From Rhodospirillaceae bacterium (lineage in GTDB: Bacteria; Pseudomonadota; Alphaproteobacteria; Rhodospirillales; JABHCV01), in contig JABHGV010000092.1 of NCBI GenBank assembly GCA_018671895.1, forward strand, positions 1 to 40,738: 40,738 nt of DNA, in the 5' to 3' direction. The translations under genes were made by a program, and so were the position numbers. The notes beneath the pieces are model-generated. The model did not search any database, was not told the origin of the DNA, and was given only the letters and a program-made list of their open reading frames with translations. Of this stretch, positions 19,357 through 31,220 are shown piece after piece. The first letter of the stretch is position 1. Each line of letters opens with the position of its first letter.

Positions 19357-20169
19357 CTAGTACTGGTAGCCGTAGCTGCCCCACCAGTAAATCCAGATGA
19401 ACAGGAAGACCCAGACTACATCAACGAAGTGCCAGTACCAGGCGGCTGCTTCGAAACCGACGTGCTGCTTAGGCGTGAAGTGTCCCGAGCTGGCCCGCAG
19501 ATAGTTCACGGTCAGGAAACAGGCTCCGACGAAAACGTGGAAGCCGTGGAAACCGGTGGCCAGATAGAAGGTCGACGGATAGATGCCGTCCGTAATGCCG
19601 AACATGGCTTCGGAATATTCATAAGCCTGCAGGCCGATAAACAGGAAGCCCAGCGCAACGGTCATCAGCAGGCCAAGACGCAGCTTGCTGTAGTCGCCTT
19701 TTTGCAGGGCGTGGTGGGCCCAGGTCAGCGTGACGCCGGAGCTCAGCAGGATAATGGTGTTGTAGAAGGGCAGGCTCCAAGTGTGCAACGGAACGATGCC
19801 TTCGGGCGGCCATGTTTCATGAGCGAGAGAACTGAGGGCCGGAACGCTGCTGTGGAAGTAGGCCCAGAAGAAGGCAACGAAGAACATCACTTCAGAGGCG
19901 ATGAACAGGATCATGCCGACACGCAGACCATGCTGCACGACGGGCGTGTGGTCTTCGCCGTTCTGGGCTTCTTTGACGACATCGCGCCACCAGCCAAACA
20001 TGCAGTACAGAACGATCGCCAGTCCGGCCAGGAAGCCATACAACGGGCCTTCCTGCATGTACCAGATACCACCGACGGCCATGACGAAGGCACCGATTGT
20101 GCCAACAATCGGCCAGCCGCTCGGCTCAACCATGTGAAAGGGGTGCTTCTTAACTTGTTCGCTCGACAT
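19357..20169 (-). CDS. coxC: Cytochrome c oxidase subunit III
   Basis: Seven-helix subunit of the aa3-type oxidase, involved in complex stability and proton uptake. Recognisable parts are HPFHMVEPSGWPIVG at the start, the WWRDVVKEAQ segment, MILFIASEVMFFVAFFWAYFHSS, TGFHGFHVFVG and the C-terminal AAWYWHFVDVVWVFLFIWIYWWG, the standard subunit III end. Length is 270 aa. It is last in the coxB-coxA-cox11-coxC run, 24 bases after cox11, and is followed by a clear terminator. Confidence 0.97.
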   Translation of the reverse strand: MSSEQVKKHPFHMVEPSGWPIVGTIGAFVMAVGGIWYMQEGPLYGFLAGLAIVLYCMFGWWRDVVKEAQNGEDHTPVVQHGLRVGMILFIASEVMFFVAFFWAYFHSSVPALSSLAHETWPPEGIVPLHTWSLPFYNTIILLSSGVTLTWAHHALQKGDYSKLRLGLLMTVALGFLFIGLQAYEYSEAMFGITDGIYPSTFYLATGFHGFHVFVGACFLTVNYLRASSGHFTPKQHVGFEAAAWYWHFVDVVWVFLFIWIYWWGSYGYQY

Positions 20170-20193
20170 CAGTGCTACTCCACTTGAATTAAC

Positions 20194-20817
20194 TTAAGTT
20201 CTTGAATCAATTTTCATTTTGGCCGCTGTTTGTGCGGCCTTTTTGGCTTGTGCCCGTTTGGCATCGTCCGGGTCCCTGTAGAAAGTATAAGACAGGGTAA
20301 TCGTGCGAAGGTCGCGGGCGTTGGGGTCGTTAAACATTTCAGGATCAACAAAGAAAGTCACAGGTAAAGACGCTTCTTCACCTGGCGCCAGTTTCTGCTC
20401 GGTAAAGCAGAAACATTCGACCTTGTTGAAATATTCCCCGGCCTTGTACGGCGTCACGTTGAATGTCGCGGTGCCAATGACGGTTTCATCGCTCGTGTTC
20501 ACGGCCGTGTAATGGGCCAGTGCTTCAGAACCGATGGGCAGGGTGATTTCCTTTTGTGCCGGCTTGAACTTCCAGGGCAGGGCCGAGTTGACATTGGAAT
20601 CGAAACGCACGGTGATCATCCGTTTTTCATCCGTCGCAACCGGATTTCCGGTAACGCTGGCAACACTTTCCACTCGGGATGTGGAGCCGCCGTATCCGGT
20701 GACCTGACAGAACAGCTGGTACAGAGGAACCGAGGCAAAAGCCAGCCCAACCATGCCGCCAGCGATGCCGAAAAGCACCATAGCGGTTTTTTTGTTACTG
20801 GTTTTGGGCTTGCTCAT
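20194..20817 (-). CDS. ctaG: Cytochrome c oxidase assembly protein CtaG/Cox11
   Basis: Copper chaperone that delivers Cu(I) to the CuB site of subunit I. One N-terminal helix (about residues 10-32) anchors a periplasmic beta domain. The copper-binding CFCF motif is seen in VECFCFTEQ, followed by the conserved PVTFFVDPEM and TLSYTFY. Length is 207 aa from the ATG at 20817. A TTG at 20829 is in frame but less likely. It sits between coxA and coxC. The heme O synthase gene (ctaB), often next to ctaG, is not in this operon. Confidence 0.95.
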   Translation of the reverse strand: MSKPKTSNKKTAMVLFGIAGGMVGLAFASVPLYQLFCQVTGYGGSTSRVESVASVTGNPVATDEKRMITVRFDSNVNSALPWKFKPAQKEITLPIGSEALAHYTAVNTSDETVIGTATFNVTPYKAGEYFNKVECFCFTEQKLAPGEEASLPVTFFVDPEMFNDPNARDLRTITLSYTFYRDPDDAKRAQAKKAAQTAAKMKIDSRT

Positions 20818-20846
20818 ACCTTGATCCAACTGTTGCCTAATGACCC

Positions 20847-23361
<2,515 letters not shown>

Positions 23362-23609: not shown

Positions 23610-25355
23610 ATGAAAAACGGTGACGTCATTCAAGATAGCGAAATAAAGGGCAAAGAAAGTATATCCGGGCACCTCGAACTGCTTTCGGATATGGGGCAGG
23701 ATTTTGCCACTTCGCTGGATATCGACGAGACCTTGCGCCATGGGTTGCAGCGAATCGCTGATTACGTCGGGGCCGAAGGCGGTGCGCTGTTCCTGCTTGA
23801 TGAAAGCGGCGAGATGCTGGAATGCACGGCTTGTGTCGGGCCGACGGAAATCGTCGGGCTGAAACTGGGCAGTTCAGAGGGCATTGTCGGACGTAGCGTT
23901 CAGGAAAATACCGGTGAAATCGTCCGAGACGTCTCCAAAGACCCCAATTTCAAGACCGAGGTCGATGCAGAAAGCGGCTTTACCACACGCTCCATCCTGT
24001 GTGCGCCCCTAAGCGTCAAGGACGAACGCATCGGCGCTATTGAACTGGTCAACAAGACCAGCGGTGATGGTTTGTTCGATGACAACGACCTGTTTTTCCT
24101 GCAATCGCTGGCCTCTTCGGCAGCTCTTGCCATCCTCAACGCGCGCATGGCCGAGGCCCTTGTCGAACAGGAAAGGGTCAAGCGCGAACTGGAACTGGCC
24201 GCTGAAATTCAACGCAGTCTTTTGCCTGATGAGAAAGGGGAGGAGTACCCTGTGCATGGTGTTAATTGCCCAGCGCGTACAGTTTCGGGCGATTTTTATG
24301 ATTATTTTCCACTGCCTGACGGTCGCATCTATTTCAATTTAGGCGATGTGTCGGGCAAGGGCATGAACGCCGCTTTGCTGATGGCGAAGACGGCGAGCCT
24401 GTTCCGGTGCTTGGGAAAAACCATCCACGACCCCGGACGCCTGTTGTCGCTGATTAACGATGAAATCTGCGAGACCGTCACCCGCGGCATGTTCGTGACC
24501 ATGCTGGGCGGCATTTACGATCCGAAGAAAGGCACCGTCAAACTGGCCAACGCCGGACACGAGCCACCGCTGTACCACGCCCGGGACGGCAGCTTTACAC
24601 CCCTGCCGGCCGAGGCCCCGCCGCTGGGCATATCGCCTTTGTTGACGGCAGGCGGCGGCATTCCGGTAACCGAGCTTGGTCTTGATGGCGGCAGTCTTTA
24701 TGTTTTCACCGATGGTGTTACCGAGGGCTATCTTGAAGACGGCAGTGAATTCGGCGCCGACGGCCTGATGACGCTGCTCACCGATATGGCCAGCGCCGCG
24801 GCCCCGGAGCGCCTGGCTGAGGTAAAGCGGCGCATAAACAGGGAAAACGTCGCGCTGAGGGATGACCTGACGTTGTTGGTAGTCGATGACGGTGTTTCGA
24901 TGGACGGGCGCGAGCAAATGGCCGGAGAGGCGGATATGAGCGACGACGAGACGATTCTGCACCTGCAGTTTCCGTCCCACCCGGATCGCCTGAAACTGGT
25001 CCGCAGCGCCGTTTTCGACACCTCTATTCACAGCGGCTGCAGCGACCCCATTGCGCGCGACATCGTCATTGCCGTCGACGAGGCATGTCAAAACATCATT
25101 CGTCATGCCTACAAAGGCTCACCCGACGGCGAGGTCGTTCTCGATATTTGCCGGGAAGGCGCTAATCTGGTGCTCAATCTGCGCGATTACGCCGACAAGG
25201 TGGATGTATCGAAAATCAAACCGCGCGATCTGGACGACATCAGGCCCGGCGGGCTTGGCACCCACTTTATCCGCGAGGTGATGGACGAAGTCACATTCCT
25301 GGACCCGCCAGAGGGCGAAGGAAATCTTCTTCGAATGGTCAAACAAATCGCTTAG
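23610..25355 (+). CDS. GAF-PP2C(SpoIIE)-HATPase partner-switching regulator
   Basis: Three-domain signalling protein of 581 aa. A GAF sensor (about residues 25-185) is followed by a short coiled linker and a PP2C-type SpoIIE phosphatase (about 200-430). The phosphatase has the metal-binding SGDFYDYF, GDVSGKGMNAALLMAK, FTDGVTEG and DDLTLLVVDD motifs. The C-terminal GHKL ATPase/anti-sigma kinase domain (about 450-580) has the N-box DEACQNIIRHAY and G-box GGLGTHFI. Such proteins both phosphorylate (RsbW/SpoIIAB-like) and dephosphorylate STAS partners. The STAS gene follows at 37 bases, so it is the likely substrate. No sigma factor gene is nearby; the lipid transporter follows instead. The soluble sequence has no transmembrane helix. 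Confidence 0.88.
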   Translation: MKNGDVIQDSEIKGKESISGHLELLSDMGQDFATSLDIDETLRHGLQRIADYVGAEGGALFLLDESGEMLECTACVGPTEIVGLKLGSSEGIVGRSVQENTGEIVRDVSKDPNFKTEVDAESGFTTRSILCAPLSVKDERIGAIELVNKTSGDGLFDDNDLFFLQSLASSAALAILNARMAEALVEQERVKRELELAAEIQRSLLPDEKGEEYPVHGVNCPARTVSGDFYDYFPLPDGRIYFNLGDVSGKGMNAALLMAKTASLFRCLGKTIHDPGRLLSLINDEICETVTRGMFVTMLGGIYDPKKGTVKLANAGHEPPLYHARDGSFTPLPAEAPPLGISPLLTAGGGIPVTELGLDGGSLYVFTDGVTEGYLEDGSEFGADGLMTLLTDMASAAAPERLAEVKRRINRENVALRDDLTLLVVDDGVSMDGREQMAGEADMSDDETILHLQFPSHPDRLKLVRSAVFDTSIHSGCSDPIARDIVIAVDEACQNIIRHAYKGSPDGEVVLDICREGANLVLNLRDYADKVDVSKIKPRDLDDIRPGGLGTHFIREVMDEVTFLDPPEGEGNLLRMVKQIA

Positions 25356-25392
25356 AACAGAAACATCTGGGAATGAAGGTCGGACACGAAAA

Positions 25393-25725
25393 ATGAAACA
25401 CGAAGTCAATGAACAGGGCGGAGCCGTTGTTGTCGGTTTCGAAGGAGACGTGGATCTTCAATCCTCGCCAGACGCCAGAAAGATCATGCTTGAATGCGTC
25501 GAGCGCAAGATGCCCATTCTGATCGACCTGTCGAAGGTCGAATACATCGACTCATCGGGCATTGCGTCCCTGGTCGAATGCCTGCAAACGGCACGAAAAT
25601 CGGGCAGCGATCTGGTGCTGGTGGCGGTGAGTGAGTCGGCGCTTCGGGTTCTGGAGTTGGCGCGTCTGGATAAAGTCTTTACCATTTGCGATACCATCGA
25701 GGACGGTCTGGCAAAAGTCGGATAG
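25393..25725 (+). CDS. STAS domain protein (anti-sigma factor antagonist or MlaB-like)
   Basis: Single STAS domain of 110 aa. The motif YIDSSGIASL contains Ser55, which aligns with the phosphorylated serine of SpoIIAA/RsbV. The preceding Asp and following Gly are intact, so it can be a phospho-switch protein. Its position between the phosphatase/kinase gene and mlaE allows two roles. It may be the target of the upstream regulator, or it may act like MlaB, the STAS subunit that binds the MlaF ATPase in E. coli. The two roles are not exclusive. It is 24 bases upstream of mlaE. Confidence 0.85.
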   Translation: MKHEVNEQGGAVVVGFEGDVDLQSSPDARKIMLECVERKMPILIDLSKVEYIDSSGIASLVECLQTARKSGSDLVLVAVSESALRVLELARLDKVFTICDTIEDGLAKVG

Positions 25726-25749
25726 TGAATTTCGATTTCTGGGGTTGGG

Positions 25750-26568
25750 ATGCAGTTCAAAGACCTGAAAGAACAGGCAGAAAACTATGCTGAAAAAATC
25801 GGCAAGCTGACCGTTGTCGGCGTCGAGGAAATCGGCAATGGCGGTGTGCTAGTCGCCGAGAGCATGTATTGGCTGATCTTCGGGGCCAGCCTGAAACAAC
25901 CGGTGCGACCATCGGCCGTCGTCGTGCAGATGGTTGAAATCGGCATCAAGGCCATTCCCATTGTTGCCATGCTGGCCGGTGCCATCGGTGCCATGCTGGC
26001 CATTCAAAGTATTTATATGCTGAGCATCTTCGGGGCCGAGTCCCAGGTCGCCTATGGCGTCGCCTTTTCGGTGGTGCGCGAATTTGCACCGTTGATTACC
26101 GGCATTCTGGTCGCCGGTCGGTCCGGCTCCGCACTGGCGGCGCGCTTGGGCACCATGAAAATCAGCCAGGAAATTGATGCGCTCAAGGTCATGGGGATTA
26201 ACCCGGTGCGGTTCCTGGTCGTACCTGCATTGCTGGCGATGCTGATTATGGTGCCGGCCTTGACCATGCTGAACGGCATGATCGGGCTGTTGTGCGCCGG
26301 ATTGTATATTAATGCCGACCTGGGCGTCAGCCTGGCGGCCTATGGCGAACAATTGATCGATATCCTGTCCATCGACGATGTCATGCACGGCATCGGCAAA
26401 AGCGCCATCTTCGCGGTTCTGATCGCCGTTATCGGGGTCGTCAACGGGGCCTCGGTCACCGGTGGTGCCGAAGGCGTCGGCAAGGTAACGACACGTTCCG
26501 TGGTGCAAGCCATTTCGGCAATTATTGTCACCGACATGATATTCGCGTTCATCGCGACACGCGGATAA
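25750..26568 (+). CDS. mlaE: MlaE family lipid ABC transporter permease
   Basis: Inner-membrane permease subunit of an Mla-type ABC transporter that moves phospholipids between inner and outer membranes. At 272 aa it has five to six predicted helices and the family segments VVREFAPLITGILVAGRSGSALAARLGTM and EIDALKVMGINPVRFLVVPALLA. These form the elbow/coupling region contacting the ATPase. GGGG before the ATG serves as ribosome-binding site. It forms an operon with the MlaF-, MlaD- and lipoprotein-encoding genes, with gaps from 13 bases to overlap. Confidence 0.93.
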   Translation: MQFKDLKEQAENYAEKIGKLTVVGVEEIGNGGVLVAESMYWLIFGASLKQPVRPSAVVVQMVEIGIKAIPIVAMLAGAIGAMLAIQSIYMLSIFGAESQVAYGVAFSVVREFAPLITGILVAGRSGSALAARLGTMKISQEIDALKVMGINPVRFLVVPALLAMLIMVPALTMLNGMIGLLCAGLYINADLGVSLAAYGEQLIDILSIDDVMHGIGKSAIFAVLIAVIGVVNGASVTGGAEGVGKVTTRSVVQAISAIIVTDMIFAFIATRG

Positions 26569-26581
26569 AGGGGATAAGCGA

Positions 26582-27421
26582 ATGACCGCCGATGAAACCG
26601 ACCAGCCAAAGACCGTGATCGAGGTCGAAAACCTCGTCACCCACTATGGCCCCCGCAAAATTCTGGATGGCGTCAGCATGAACGTCCAGGAAGGCGAGGT
26701 CATGGTCATCATGGGCGGCAGTGGATCGGGCAAAAGTACGCTGCTCAGGTTCCTGATGGCGCTTGAACGCCAGACGTCGGGTACCATCAAGCTGTTGGGA
26801 AACGACATTGAAGAACTGAGCCAGCAGGAAATGTTCAAATTGCGCAAGAAAATCGGCGTCGCCTTTCAGGGCGGGGCGCTGTTTTCATCGATGACGGTCG
26901 GCGAGAACATCATGTTGCCGCTCTATGAACATGCCGACCTTGATATGATGACCATGGAAATCATGGCGCGCATGAAGCTGGAGGTCGTCGACCTTGCCGG
27001 GTTCGAAGATTTGATGCCGTCGGAACTGTCGGGTGGCATGATCAAGCGCGCGGCTTTTGCCCGCGCCGTTATCATGGACCCGCTGCTGCTGTTTTGCGAC
27101 GAGCCATCGGCCGGGCTGGACCCGGTTGTCGCCTCGGCCCTGGATGACTTGATTTTGAAATTACGCGATGCCATGCGTATGACCGTCGTCGTCGTCACCC
27201 ATGAACTGGAAAGCGTGTTCAAGATCGCCGACCGGGTAACGGTGCTGGATCGTGGTCATATCCTGTTTATCGGTACCGTTGATGAATTGCGTGCGTCGAA
27301 AAGCGAGCGTATACAGAACCTTCTCAACCGTCGCCCTGAAGACGACAACATCGACCCGGACGAATATCTGCGCCGGCTGACAGGCGAGGCTGAGGACATT
27401 GGGGGAGGCGCGACCTTATGA
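26582..27421 (+). CDS. mlaF: MlaF family ABC transporter ATP-binding protein
   Basis: Cytoplasmic ATPase that drives the MlaE permease. It shows Walker A GGSGSGKST (about residues 50-58), the Q-loop AFQGGALFSSMT, the signature LSGGM, Walker B LLFCDEPSAGLDP and the H-loop VVTHELES. Length is 279 aa. The extra C-terminal part (RPEDDNIDPDEYLRRLTG) is longer than a minimal ATPase; in E. coli the MlaF tail contacts the partner subunit and MlaB. Its stop overlaps the next start (ATGA), showing translational coupling. Confidence 0.95.
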   Translation: MTADETDQPKTVIEVENLVTHYGPRKILDGVSMNVQEGEVMVIMGGSGSGKSTLLRFLMALERQTSGTIKLLGNDIEELSQQEMFKLRKKIGVAFQGGALFSSMTVGENIMLPLYEHADLDMMTMEIMARMKLEVVDLAGFEDLMPSELSGGMIKRAAFARAVIMDPLLLFCDEPSAGLDPVVASALDDLILKLRDAMRMTVVVVTHELESVFKIADRVTVLDRGHILFIGTVDELRASKSERIQNLLNRRPEDDNIDPDEYLRRLTGEAEDIGGGATL

Positions 27422-28347
27422 GGAATAACAAGCTCAACTACGTGATTGTCGGAACATTTGTGTTGGCCATGCTGGTCGGCCTGATTATGTCCGTTGTCAT
27501 GTTGACAGGGCGGACCGGGTCCACGGATTCATACTATGCGATCTACAATAACGTCACCGGCGTCAAATTCGGCACCCAGGTGATGTATGAAGGCTATCCG
27601 ATCGGGCAAGTCGACGAAGTGACGCCTGTCGTCGGGGCCGGAAAAATGAGCTTCCGGGTTGATTTCTCTATTATCGAGGGCTGGCGTCTGCCCAACGACA
27701 GTGTGGCCAATATCGCCGCGCCGGGTTTGTTGTCGGCAATCACGATAAGCATTTCAGCCGGACAAAGCGCCGATACGCTGAAGCCGGGGGCGGAAATTGA
27801 CGGCGAGGAAAACGCCGACATGTTCGCCGTCGTCAGTCAGGTCGCCGACGATCTGCGCCCGCTGATGAAAACCATCGACGGCACCGTCGGCAGTTTCGGC
27901 AAGTTGCTGGAAACGGACATCACCGAAATGGTTTCCGACCTTGCCCAACGGGCCCCCAGGATCGCCGACAACATCGAAGACTTCACCGGTAAGATCAACC
28001 AGAGCAGCGACCAGTTGATGGCCCTGCTGACGCCTGAAAACAGGGAAAAGATCGAGGCCATGATCAGCAATCTGGATGTGGCGGCGACAAACTTTACCGA
28101 ACTGTCGGGAAATCTGGACGGGCTGGTCAAGGAACTGGACGCTCTGGTCGTCGACAACAAGGGCAATATCGACAAGTCCATGGTCGACTTGCGCTATGTG
28201 GCGGATTCTGTGGCCCGCCATATCGATTCCCTGAACCAGAATATGGAAGCGACGGCGCGCAACATGTACGAGTTCAGCCGCCAGATCAGACAAAATCCGG
28301 GATTGTTGCTGGGTGGAACGCCGCCCCGTGACGAGGCGCGGCAATGA
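27418..28347 (+). CDS. mlaD: MlaD family MCE-domain protein
   Basis: Periplasmic lipid-binding subunit anchored by one N-terminal helix (about residues 7-28). A single MCE domain follows (about 38-115, with YAIYNNVTGVKFGTQVMYEGYPIGQV). The remaining part (about 130-290) is largely helical and coiled-coil-like, with repeated Asp/Leu/Ile heptad patterns. That is longer than in E. coli MlaD (183 aa) and could build a longer tunnel across the periplasm. It overlaps the mlaF stop by 4 bases. Length is 309 aa. Confidence 0.92.
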   Translation: MRNNKLNYVIVGTFVLAMLVGLIMSVVMLTGRTGSTDSYYAIYNNVTGVKFGTQVMYEGYPIGQVDEVTPVVGAGKMSFRVDFSIIEGWRLPNDSVANIAAPGLLSAITISISAGQSADTLKPGAEIDGEENADMFAVVSQVADDLRPLMKTIDGTVGSFGKLLETDITEMVSDLAQRAPRIADNIEDFTGKINQSSDQLMALLTPENREKIEAMISNLDVAATNFTELSGNLDGLVKELDALVVDNKGNIDKSMVDLRYVADSVARHIDSLNQNMEATARNMYEFSRQIRQNPGLLLGGTPPRDEARQ

Positions 28348-28364
28348 TAAAGGGGGATATTGCA

Positions 28365-28964
28365 GTGAACCTGAAAACAATCTTTTCGGCCCTGACGGTC
28401 GTTGTCGCCTTGTCGGTCGCCGGTTGTTCGCAACCGCCGGTACCGAAAGACAATTATTACCGCTTGCAGGTCGCAACTCCGCAAGCAGCACCCGCGCCTA
28501 TCTTTAAAGGCGTTATCGAGGTCAGCCGCTTCGTCGCCGATGGCCTGACCGCCAGTCGCCCTATCGCCTATAGCAAGGCCGATAGCCCGCATCAGCTGAA
28601 TGCGTATCATTATCATTTCTGGACCGAACCGCCGGTCGTCATGCTGCGCGACCAGTTGGTCGATTTCCTGCGCGCCGCCAACGCAGCCGATTTGATCGTG
28701 ACGCCGGAAATCAGGTCCACCGTCGATTATGTTCTGACCGCCAAGATCAAACGGCTGGAAAAAATCGCCGGTTCATCGTCCAGCGCCGTTGTTGAACTGG
28801 AACTGGGGTTGCAGGACAACCACAAGGACCGGGTCGTGCACTTAAAGACCTATCGGGTCGAAACCACGGCGAAATCCAGTTCCGTTGCCGATGCCGTCGT
28901 CGCGCTCAACAAGGCGCTTGGCAGCGCCTATACCCTTTTCGTCGAAGACCTGAAGAAACTCTAG
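28365..28964 (+). CDS. ABC-type transport auxiliary lipoprotein (PqiC/DUF330-like)
   Basis: Outer-membrane-type lipoprotein, 199 aa. The signal peptide ends in the lipobox LSVAGC, so the mature protein starts at Cys21. The mature part begins with YYRL, then IEVSRFVADGLTASRPIAY and a segment near WTEPPVVMLRDQLVDFLR, matching the auxiliary lipoprotein family that accompanies MCE transporters (PqiC/YmbA). I chose GTG at 28365 because AGGGGG lies at ideal distance and it gives a normal signal peptide. The ATG at 28344, overlapping the mlaD stop, is the alternative. It replaces the MlaC/MlaA-type partners seen in E. coli, neither of which is encoded here. Confidence 0.8.
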   Translation: MNLKTIFSALTVVVALSVAGCSQPPVPKDNYYRLQVATPQAAPAPIFKGVIEVSRFVADGLTASRPIAYSKADSPHQLNAYHYHFWTEPPVVMLRDQLVDFLRAANAADLIVTPEIRSTVDYVLTAKIKRLEKIAGSSSSAVVELELGLQDNHKDRVVHLKTYRVETTAKSSSVADAVVALNKALGSAYTLFVEDLKKL

Positions 28965-29024: not shown

Positions 29025-29093
29025 TTTGAGCAGAGCACCACTTTGCCTTAGGGTGTAAGTGGAGCAATATTCAATGAAAGGGTGCGCCACCGC

Positions 29094-29987
29094 ATGAAGG
29101 GCTTCTTAGGCATTTTGGGGATGATTTTGTGCCTGCTGGCCGTGTCACCAAGCATGGCGGAAGAAGATCGCGTGCAATTTCTGATCCGGCAAGCCGAGAC
29201 GGCGATTTCCCAAGATGATATTGAACAGACGGCTCAATACCTCATGGAAATGAATGAATTGTTCTATGGCCTGGGCACCGAGCAAGAAGATATTCCCGGA
29301 AAATTTTCCATGACGAATTATCAAAAAGAGTTGTGCCTGGATCGAAAAGCGACAGCTTTATTGTTTACACCCGCAAAGATAAAACGCCTTCAGCATATTG
29401 CACGCGTCTTGGCAGATGGGCTTGTTCACAGAAAAGAAGAAAACGAACCCTACGTTCACGTCATACTCGAATGTACCCAGGACAACGGCGATCCCGTGCC
29501 GACGGCCAAGGCATTGCGAGAGGGCTTTTCCTGGGTGAAGAAGCTCAATGAGGCAACCATCGAGGAAGCACACGCCATGGGGCAGGAGTATGAGGCGCTG
29601 CTTGAACAGCACCCGGGCGACTTTTTTTATGACATGCTTAACGATTCTGTAGACATCAGAATCCGCTATATACGCGAAGAGGAAGAGCGCCGGGAAGAAA
29701 AAAAACGCTACCCCAAAGGCAGATTCTATCAGATCGATCTCGTTAATAAAGCCGACAAGGGCGTCCTCGCCGCCCAGTTGGAGGTGGCGCGCGGCATCGA
29801 AACCGGGACCGACTTCCGGCAGCACAACGCGATGGCTTATTTTTGGTACAAACACGCCCTGCAAAACGGGGGAGGCGACGTCGCCCAAGCCGGCATGGAC
29901 AGGCTGCATCCCCATTTATGGGAAGGGGATTTTCAACTCATTGACATGTGGACCGAAGAGGGTCGCCGTCCTTACCAGCCTAAATAA
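29094..29987 (+). CDS. Secreted protein with Sel1-like C-terminus
   Basis: Unrecognised protein of 297 aa. A clear signal peptide (about residues 1-22, cleavage after SMA before EED) points to the periplasm or outside. The mature part is charged and helical. Near residue 241-270 the pattern AMAYFWYKHALQNGGGDVAQAGMDRL resembles a Sel1/TPR-like repeat, where Ala, Trp/Tyr, Lys-Ala and Gly recur. Two internal cysteines (in KELCLDRK and ILECTQD) could form a disulfide. The ATG at 29094 follows AAAGGG at 12 bases; GTG at 29082 is in frame but has no room for a binding site. The gene is convergent with the MuF-type gene, 14 bases apart. No function can be assigned. Confidence 0.7.
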   Translation: MKGFLGILGMILCLLAVSPSMAEEDRVQFLIRQAETAISQDDIEQTAQYLMEMNELFYGLGTEQEDIPGKFSMTNYQKELCLDRKATALLFTPAKIKRLQHIARVLADGLVHRKEENEPYVHVILECTQDNGDPVPTAKALREGFSWVKKLNEATIEEAHAMGQEYEALLEQHPGDFFYDMLNDSVDIRIRYIREEEERREEKKRYPKGRFYQIDLVNKADKGVLAAQLEVARGIETGTDFRQHNAMAYFWYKHALQNGGGDVAQAGMDRLHPHLWEGDFQLIDMWTEEGRRPYQPK

Positions 29988-30001: not shown

Positions 30002-30991
30002 CTATTCTTCGCCCATGCACACTCTGTATAGGCGAGACAATTCCGCCGCGATTGAATAGTGGTCATCCTGTTTGCGTTTAAGACTCTTCAGCTTCTCTTG
30101 CGCGATGTCACGCGTCTGCTTTTCGGTTTCGATTTTTTGATCTATCTCATCAAGTTTTTGTTGTAGCAAACGAAGATAAGCAATCGTTGAGATCGCTCCA
30201 ACGGGGCCTGGCTTGGATAGCGAGCCGGAAATTGCCGCAGTCCTCATTTCATATACTATTTCTTCACGGTCTGACCTCAATTCTTCGAGTCTATTTTCAC
30301 TTTTTGCAACATCTCCCTTTGCCTTTTCAATAGGCTCACGCAAATCATCATGCCTGCGCCACGCGGCATTCTTTTCCCACTTAAGTTTCTCACAGTCTTT
30401 TTTCTTTTCTTCCGCCGTGCAGCGGCAGTTATAGGCCTCGCCGGGGTGGCCGCCTTCGGGCGGGTTGTCCCAGGAAAATGTCCTCCCATTTCGTCTGGCG
30501 TGCGACGAGCGCACCTTGCTGTCGCCAGCCGTGCGCCAGATGTAGGAGCCTTTCTTCGTGTCAGACGTGTTCTTATTAGTCGTGCTCTTGGCGGTTCTGT
30601 AAAATTCCAGCAGTCCGGTGTCAGGATTGATCGTTCCGGCGCCGCCTCTTTCTTTCAGCAAGCTGGCCTCGGCGGGGGATATATGGGCGAGAACCGTATC
30701 GCCACGGCGGCCCATGCCTTGCAGGTGTTGAGCCATGGATTGAAGCGCGGATTCAGACTCGCCGCCCGGTTTCATAACGCCATCGACGCGCAAGCCGTTG
30801 GCGTGCTGGAAGCTCCGAATGGCGTCGATCAGGGCGCGGTCGGGGAATTCCGTCATGCCCCAATCGGGGACTTCATAAAAGCCCATATCATGCAAAATTT
30901 GCTTTGCCGCGAGAACGTCATTCGGCTGGGCGGTGACGTTATCGGCGATGGTGTGTTTTAACTTGAAGGTCTTGTTAGTAGTCCTGGTCAT
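30002..30991 (-). CDS. Orphan fusion protein: peptidoglycan-binding domain, phage MuF-type domain, coiled coil
   Basis: Protein of 329 aa. Residues about 10-85 resemble a peptidoglycan-binding domain (AAKQILHDMGFYEVP, FPDRALIDAIRSFQHANGLRVDGVM). A glycine motif GGAGTINPDTGLLEF lies near residue 116. Residues about 150-195 match the phage Mu F / minor head protein signature: WRTAGDSKVRSSHARRNG, then WDNPPEGGHPGE and CRC. The rest (about 200-329) is highly charged with coiled-coil character and a short hydrophobic stretch (VGAISTIAYL). The start at 30991 has GGAG eight bases upstream. An upstream in-frame ATG (31213) would run through the hairpin and repeat and is rejected. No other phage gene is nearby, so it is an orphan. 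There is no signal peptide. Confidence 0.75.
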   Translation of the reverse strand: MTRTTNKTFKLKHTIADNVTAQPNDVLAAKQILHDMGFYEVPDWGMTEFPDRALIDAIRSFQHANGLRVDGVMKPGGESESALQSMAQHLQGMGRRGDTVLAHISPAEASLLKERGGAGTINPDTGLLEFYRTAKSTTNKNTSDTKKGSYIWRTAGDSKVRSSHARRNGRTFSWDNPPEGGHPGEAYNCRCTAEEKKKDCEKLKWEKNAAWRRHDDLREPIEKAKGDVAKSENRLEELRSDREEIVYEMRTAAISGSLSKPGPVGAISTIAYLRLLQQKLDEIDQKIETEKQTRDIAQEKLKSLKRKQDDHYSIAAELSRLYRVCMGEE

Positions 30992-31040
30992 GATTTTGTC
31001 TCCGTCTTGGGTGTGCTTGGTGATTGCGGTTTCTTCTTTG

Positions 31041-31076
31041 GCGCACTGCGTGGTGCGGTTTCTGGAAGTCAGGCAT
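31041..31076 (+). repeat. Small interspersed repeat, copy B
   Basis: 36 bases upstream of the MuF-type gene on the opposite strand. The first half forms CGCAC/GTGCG. The last 14 bases (TGGAAGTCAGGCAT) are repeated exactly, inverted, in copy C at 31318-31331, and overall 28 of 36 positions agree with copy C. Confidence 0.65.
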
Positions 31077-31089
31077 GAAAGGGGACCAA

Positions 31090-31116
31090 GAGCCCGGTTT
31101 TGAAAAAACCAGGCTC
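31090..31116. other. 12-bp hairpin upstream of the MuF-type gene
   Basis: GAGCCCGGTTTT and AAAACCAGGCTC pair at 11 of 12 positions around a GAA loop. No T-run follows directly on either strand, so it is not a standard terminator. It lies in the 367-base gene-free stretch 30992-31358, which otherwise holds two repeat copies, a terminator and no coding sequence. Confidence 0.6.
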
Positions 31117-31181
31117 CTGTCAAAATTAAAATCGGACTTTCAGAGAATGCGCCACGCGAAGCGTGCGTAAGGAATGACCAT

Positions 31182-31220
31182 AAAAAAAACACGCGTGCCC
31201 GGAATACGGACACACGTGTG
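31182..31220 (-). terminator. Rho-independent terminator downstream of the GapR-like gene
   Basis: On the - strand CACACGTG, one base, CCG, a short loop, CGG, one base, CACGCGTG is followed by eight T. The stem has two mismatches. It would end transcripts coming from the GapR-like gene about 140 bases upstream and insulate the MuF-type gene. Confidence 0.7.

Follow-up and report, generated by a model that had tools for sequence, protein, structure and literature searches.

A putative phospho-switch encoded at the head of an Mpc-like lipid transporter operon in Alphaproteobacteria

The stretch of Rhodospirillaceae bacterium DNA analyzed here (GenBank assembly GCA_018671895.1, contig JABHGV010000092.1, positions 1 to 40,738; hereafter the window) carries a six-gene operon at positions 23610-28964. 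All six open reading frames (ORFs) lie on the plus strand. They encode, in order, a sensor/switch protein with GAF, PP2C and HATPase domains, a STAS protein, MlaE, MlaF, MlaD and a lipoprotein (Table 1). The genes are separated by 37, 24, and 13 nt and then overlap twice by 4 nt, as computed from the ORF coordinates. The initial annotation had described six same-strand genes separated by no more than 37 nt, and the ORF list and Pfam agree with it on both positions and domains. Its remark that no sigma factor gene is present also holds among the window ORFs, ten further ones of which were scanned with Pfam while the others were judged by eye. Promoter and terminator scans gave results at chance level. 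Because the arrangement is found again in well over a hundred genomes, it is not a product of chance.

Table 1. Genes and sites of the operon, in window coordinates.
Feature	Position	Strand	Basis
Sensor/switch protein, 581 aa	23610..25355	+	Pfam GAF, SpoIIE/PP2C, HATPase_c_2
STAS protein, 110 aa, proposed phospho-target and transporter subunit	25393..25725	+	Pfam STAS
Codons of STAS residues 53-56 (D-S-S-G)	25549..25560	+	Computed from ORF start 25393
Ser54 codon, predicted acceptor	25552-25554	+	Alignment to known acceptors
MlaE/MpcE-type permease, 272 aa, no STAS fusion	25750..26568	+	Pfam MlaE
MlaF/MpcF-type ABC ATPase, 279 aa	26582..27421	+	Pfam, NCBIfam, AlphaFold2 model
Codons of MlaF C-terminal DPDEYLRRLT (residues 258-267), proposed STAS-contact tail	27353..27382	+	Conservation, AlphaFold2 model
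MlaD/MpcD-type MCE protein with long C-terminal region, 309 aa	27418..28347	+	Pfam MlaD
ABC_trans_aux lipoprotein (PF03886), 206 aa, in MpcA position	28344..28964	+	Pfam

The switch protein joins a GAF domain (residues 36-175, E 4e-16), a SpoIIE/PP2C phosphatase domain (residues 236-425, E 3e-37) and a HATPase_c_2 kinase domain resembling RsbW and SpoIIAB (residues 454-578, E 2e-24), all recognized by Pfam. The metal-binding aspartates of the phosphatase domain (D228, D246, D368, D418, and D419) are invariant across 167 sequences. Residues N495, D526, G547, G548, and G550 of the kinase domain are likewise invariant across 164 sequences, and the N-box glutamate E491 is present in 162 of these, the other two reading X. 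DYA or DFA stands in place of the usual DxGxG box. The catalytic residues that we checked are essentially intact, and the protein is probably able both to add and to remove phosphate. A PP2C domain with metal-binding Asp residues, an RsbW-like HATPase and a STAS protein with a phosphorylatable Ser or Thr characterize partner-switching systems, and the operon encodes all of them.

The STAS protein matches the STAS domain in Pfam (E 2e-19) and scores 81 bits against TIGR00377, which has a cut-off of 53. Against the MlaB equivalog NF033618 it scores 28.9 bits, short of the cut-off of 90. Its AlphaFold2 (AF2) model has a predicted local distance difference test score (pLDDT) of 96, and the best fold matches are anti-sigma-factor antagonists (Z 19, versus 13 to MlaB). 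Around the acceptor the protein reads I52-D53-S54-S55-G56. This IDSSG motif aligns with D-S-A-G in TM1442, D-S-T-G in RsbV and D51-T52-G-G in E. coli MlaB, in which Thr52 is the counterpart of Ser54. RsbV is phosphorylated at Ser56 and SpoIIAA at Ser58, each directly after an Asp. Because known phospho-acceptors align there, directly after Asp53, the predicted acceptor is Ser54, and the initial assignment of Ser55 as the phosphorylatable residue has to be moved by one position. Among 174 relatives (142 distinct sequences) the acceptor position holds Ser in 173 and Thr in one, while the following residue is Ser in all 174. E. coli MlaB and all nine fusions of STAS to a permease that we read have Thr there. 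Alongside the nine fused-STAS operons, no kinase is annotated or was recognized in the stretches read. This pattern, though small, is compatible with a kinase acting on the Ser of the operon STAS family; Thr can be phosphorylated too, as T68 of SiaC is (PMC7647112).

The permease matches MlaE in Pfam (E 1.5e-64). The ABC ATPase (E 7e-31) has MlaF as its best NCBIfam match, below the cut-off of that model, and its AF2 model is closest to MlaF of the MlaFEB(D) structures (Z 27). The MlaD domain covers residues 37-115 of 309 (E 9e-10), and the lipoprotein belongs to ABC_trans_aux (PF03886, E 6e-14). MlaE, MlaF, a long MlaD, and a PqiC-like lipoprotein in one operon are the gene content of Mpc systems, whereas the separate STAS protein and the 272-aa permease without STAS depart from them. 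The 309-aa MlaD departs from canonical Mla, since its E. coli counterpart has 183 aa (PMC12436622). None of the six operon genes encodes MlaC, for which no search was made elsewhere in the genome. The transporter is best classed with the Mpc-like systems (Mla-Pqi chimeras) rather than with canonical Mla; it is called Mpc-like and not Mpc because its permease is not fused to STAS. The description of the locus as a Mla operon is therefore right as to MlaE, MlaF, MlaD, and the lipoprotein and needs revision as to class. The pump would presumably transport lipid.

Conservation was surveyed in 297 genomes of the alphaproteobacterial order. The switch protein was matched in 189 of them and MlaE in 212, with 27 weak MlaE matches (E 1e-40 to 1e-45) read as a paralogue. 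Counted by hand, both proteins occur in 179 genomes, the switch protein only in 10, the transporter only in 6 and neither in 102 (phi 0.88); a Fisher P is not a true probability here because the genomes are related. In three or more of the six genomes with the transporter only (G183, G231, and G261), the locus breaks off at a contig end or close to one. Among 119 pairs listed with coordinates, 118 have the switch protein and mlaE on the same contig and strand, far enough apart to accommodate STAS, and the remaining pair is split over two contigs. The spacing is at least 348 nt, with a median of 400. In six cases it is 816-1055 nt, and there the switch-protein match ends near or before residue 435. 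A search of named genomes with only the switch protein as query yielded 80 loci, among them ones from Magnetovibrio blakemorei and Terasakiella. The full gene order is present in 64 of these (four with a split or extra gene), the other 16 hit a contig end, and all 80 are compatible with the order. Class-wide, the HATPase type and the MlaE type of the operon occur together again in nine genomes. The initial annotation asked for conservation of the six-gene order and named as a counter-indication a pair that usually lies apart from mlaE; the order is conserved, and in relatives the pair almost always adjoins mlaE. Two STAS genes are present in the operons at L231:1276-2009, where they stand in a row between the kinase and mlaE, and at L179.

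Fusions, a conserved tail on MlaF, and variant loci support the view that the STAS protein is a subunit of the transporter. The Mpc permease of Brucella abortus carries an N-terminal STAS domain (PMC12436622), and fusions of this kind also occur in the alphaproteobacterial loci from which the nine fused proteins were read. Pfam was run on six of the nine and found STAS in 6/6; against curated STAS cut-offs, four lie above at least one model, L312 lies just above PF01740 only, and L224 lies below both. The MlaF of the operon ends in a conserved D-P-D-E-Y-L-R-R-L motif (Y262 in 149 of 158 relatives, L266 in 150 of 152). In the AF2 model, residues 259-267 form a helix of low confidence (pLDDT about 60-69). 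In E. coli, Tyr261, Leu265, and Leu266 of MlaF pack against MlaB (PMC7367683). The operon tail resembles the E. coli tail and sits where that tail grips MlaB, and by this analogy we propose it as a candidate STAS contact. The motif is missing from the nine fused-STAS operons and from the genome's own paralogous MlaF.

Variant loci show that STAS stays with the transporter where the usual regulator is lacking and that the switch pair, elsewhere, stays without the transporter. In four genomes (G002, G227, G443, and G620) a kinase-only protein precedes STAS-MlaEFD-lipoprotein, and SpoIIE proteins are encoded elsewhere in those genomes. STAS-MlaEFD-lipoprotein is also present in G241, where no kinase of the RsbW type was found. 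In G507 (L223), PP2C and HATPase genes point towards a MlaEFD-lipoprotein set, and no STAS was seen within the 10 kb fetched. A 129-aa HATPase of the operon type lies at L226:5701-6090 in the 1.2-Mb complete genome of G393, with no STAS or mla seen nearby.

The genome of the window (2.5 Mb, 98% complete) contains a single SpoIIE-type domain, that of the switch protein. HATPase_c_2 gives one strong match, again the switch protein, and one weak match above cut-off, a 436-aa frame on contig C50; others fall below it. By these matches there is no other convincing RsbW-type kinase in the genome. Besides the operon STAS, the STAS matches are three long permeases, SulP-like by eye, and one orphan RsbV-like protein, so that a separate MlaB, which the initial annotation named as a counter-indication, is absent. 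The orphan (L020:6218-6553, contig C6) stands alone, has 111 aa and an IDSSG motif, and is 42% identical to the operon STAS. Similar orphans occur in G065 and G072, where no switch protein or operon-type MlaE is listed. The genome has three MlaE genes, the two outside the operon lying at contig ends. Only the copy on C30 has a readable upstream side, and no STAS precedes it. A separate MlaB and a sigma factor were both considered as the output of the switch, and neither was found.

The best explanation of these observations, and one that we consider reasonably probable, is that an Mpc-like lipid ABC transporter has a STAS subunit that is the target of a dedicated phospho-switch. Whether the linked kinase/phosphatase sets the phosphorylation of STAS, so that intermembrane lipid traffic is controlled post-translationally by a cytoplasmic signal, appears to us evenly poised. 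Dephosphorylated STAS would dock on MlaF, partly through the MlaF C-terminal tail, and thereby allow assembly or ATPase activity. The HATPase domain would phosphorylate Ser54, releasing STAS and turning the pump off, and a signal read by the GAF domain would activate the PP2C domain, which would remove the phosphate and turn the pump on. The direction of the switch is suggested by E. coli MlaB. There, T52E weakens MlaB-MlaF binding (PMC7367683), and T52A leaves the complex assembled while abolishing its ATPase activity (PMC5016091). A STAS behaving in the same way would sustain transport when dephosphorylated but not when phosphorylated. The initial annotation had made STAS both phospho-target and transporter subunit. 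The second role is backed by the fusions and the MlaF tail, while the first is one that we infer.

Several observations weigh against this explanation. The assembled but inactive T52A complex implies that the position can matter without phosphorylation, and G241 retains Ser54 although no RsbW-type kinase was found there. In sequence and predicted fold, the STAS protein is RsbV/SpoIIAA-like and resembles MlaB less than it resembles anti-sigma antagonists. The switch protein and STAS occur without the transporter in G175, G184, G212, and G018, as well as in G407 from another order, and beside mla remnants in G019. As the pair is kept without the transporter in some genomes, a second output is possible, and the switch might also act on the free-standing STAS paralogue encoded outside the operon. 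L228 and L229, the two most distant kinase-linked operons, show the MlaF tail motif weakly or not at all. Mean-field direct-coupling analysis of STAS against HATPase, PP2C, MlaE, MlaF, MlaD, and the lipoprotein (85-104 effective sequences) was uninformative and was dropped because the top pairs fell mostly at alignment ends and in gappy columns. Every gene pair gives a distance-matrix correlation of 0.68-0.86, which reflects shared descent and singles out no contact.

The switch protein and STAS might instead have a different target, for example a transcription regulator or a sigma/anti-sigma pair, with mla sharing their transcript for co-production only. The genomes that keep the pair without mla, the pair beside mla remnants and the likeness of STAS to RsbV and SpoIIAA all fit such a target, as does the similarly laid-out HsbR, which targets HsbA and, by way of HsbA, FlgM and HsbD (PMC6482189). 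Yet the adjacency to mla spans an order and beyond with no sigma factor seen alongside, STAS remains with mlaEFD where the phosphatase or kinase is missing and is elsewhere fused to the permease, and the MlaF tail motif accompanies the separate STAS, so that we think this unlikely, though it is the alternative to be taken most seriously. One switch could also have two outputs: its kinase would act on both the operon STAS at the transporter and the orphan STAS, and lipid traffic would thereby be tied to a further process. The orphan on C6 does share its genome with one strong RsbW-type kinase, but its counterparts in G065 and G072 are present where no switch protein is listed and need not depend on an operon kinase; we give this coupling little credence. 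Very unlikely, and the least probable of the three, is that STAS is a structural MlaB-like subunit free of phospho-regulation and that the kinase/phosphatase is an unrelated passenger. E. coli MlaB functions with no known kinase, and the G241 locus shows that the transporter set can persist without one of the RsbW type. Against this, the catalytic residues are intact in more than 160 sequences and the gene holds its position across families, and the acceptor is nearly always Ser, against Thr in MlaB and the nine fusions, even if Thr is phosphorylatable as well.

At the loci of G175, G184, and G212 (L099, L100, and L101, respectively), ORFs that by eye are RNA-methyltransferase-like and CheA-like lie downstream of the pair in L099 and L101. 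Loci of the G175 type may owe their lack of mla to a deletion between STAS and the gene that follows. In G019 (L103:4353-5032), what is left of MlaE (82 aa) and of the lipoprotein adjoins a switch protein and a STAS that are both intact; here the transporter seems to have been lost by decay and the switch pair retained.

The operon can be set beside two kinds of known system. Brucella abortus Mpc, described in 2025, shares with it the MlaE/F/D-type genes, the long MlaD C-terminus, a STAS domain, and the closing gene, which encodes a PqiC-like lipoprotein, MpcA (PMC12436622). Mpc is a four-gene operon with STAS fused to the permease, whereas here a separate RsbV-like STAS and an upstream kinase/phosphatase are encoded and MlaF has a tail unlike the one in the fused-type operons read. 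E. coli MlaFEDB, likewise an MCE ABC transporter, has STAS as a protein of its own (MlaB), a MlaF tail that touches it, and Thr52 at the acceptor position (PMC7367683, PMC5016091, PMC7790496). It has no adjacent kinase/phosphatase and, in the portions of these papers that were read, none is named; the operon described here, unlike MlaFEDB, has no MlaC gene, carries a PqiC/ABC_trans_aux lipoprotein and has a STAS not closest to MlaB. There is precedent for kinase-phosphatase-STAS modules whose output is something other than a sigma factor (HsbRA, SiaABC, CapKS/VapKS). In HsbR-HsbA and CrsR-CrsA, PP2C and an RsbW-like kinase in one protein set the phosphorylation of a STAS-type antagonist, and HsbA has a non-sigma output, HsbD (PMC6482189). 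HsbR and CrsR have a receiver domain in place of GAF, and they control sigma/anti-sigma factors and a diguanylate cyclase rather than an ABC transporter. SiaABC(D) (PMC7647112, PMC8457831) and CapK-CapS and VapK-VapS-VapC (PMC13373217) pair a kinase with a STAS-like protein and act on a cyclase, a repressor, and an antitoxin. The kinase and phosphatase of Sia are separate proteins, and the text read on Cap and Vap describes no phosphatase.

Phosphorylation of MlaB has been proposed since 2016 (PMC5016091) and again in PMC7367683, which calls MlaB regulation open. Our literature search, made mostly without subscription journals, found no paper naming a kinase for MlaB, none on partner-switch genes paired with MlaE/MlaB and no ABC lipid transporter as a partner-switch output. 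Since a kinase and a phosphatase are encoded next to STAS and an MCE transporter, in named isolates too, the question of MlaB-type phosphorylation becomes directly testable. The operon offers a natural system, in a large group of environmental bacteria, for testing phospho-control of intermembrane lipid traffic. If the proposal is true, partner switching would gain a new kind of output, extended to ABC transporters, and lipid traffic would be linked to a sensor.

The surroundings of the operon in the window include cytochrome c oxidase genes at 19357-23361, which are divergent from it. Such genes also lie near the operon in G002 (L096) and near the switch pair in G019 (L103). Directly downstream, a 301-aa ORF at 29082-29987 has no Pfam match. 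On the minus strand at 30002-31213 lies an ORF for a Phage Mu F-like protein with a peptidoglycan-binding domain, possibly a prophage trace.

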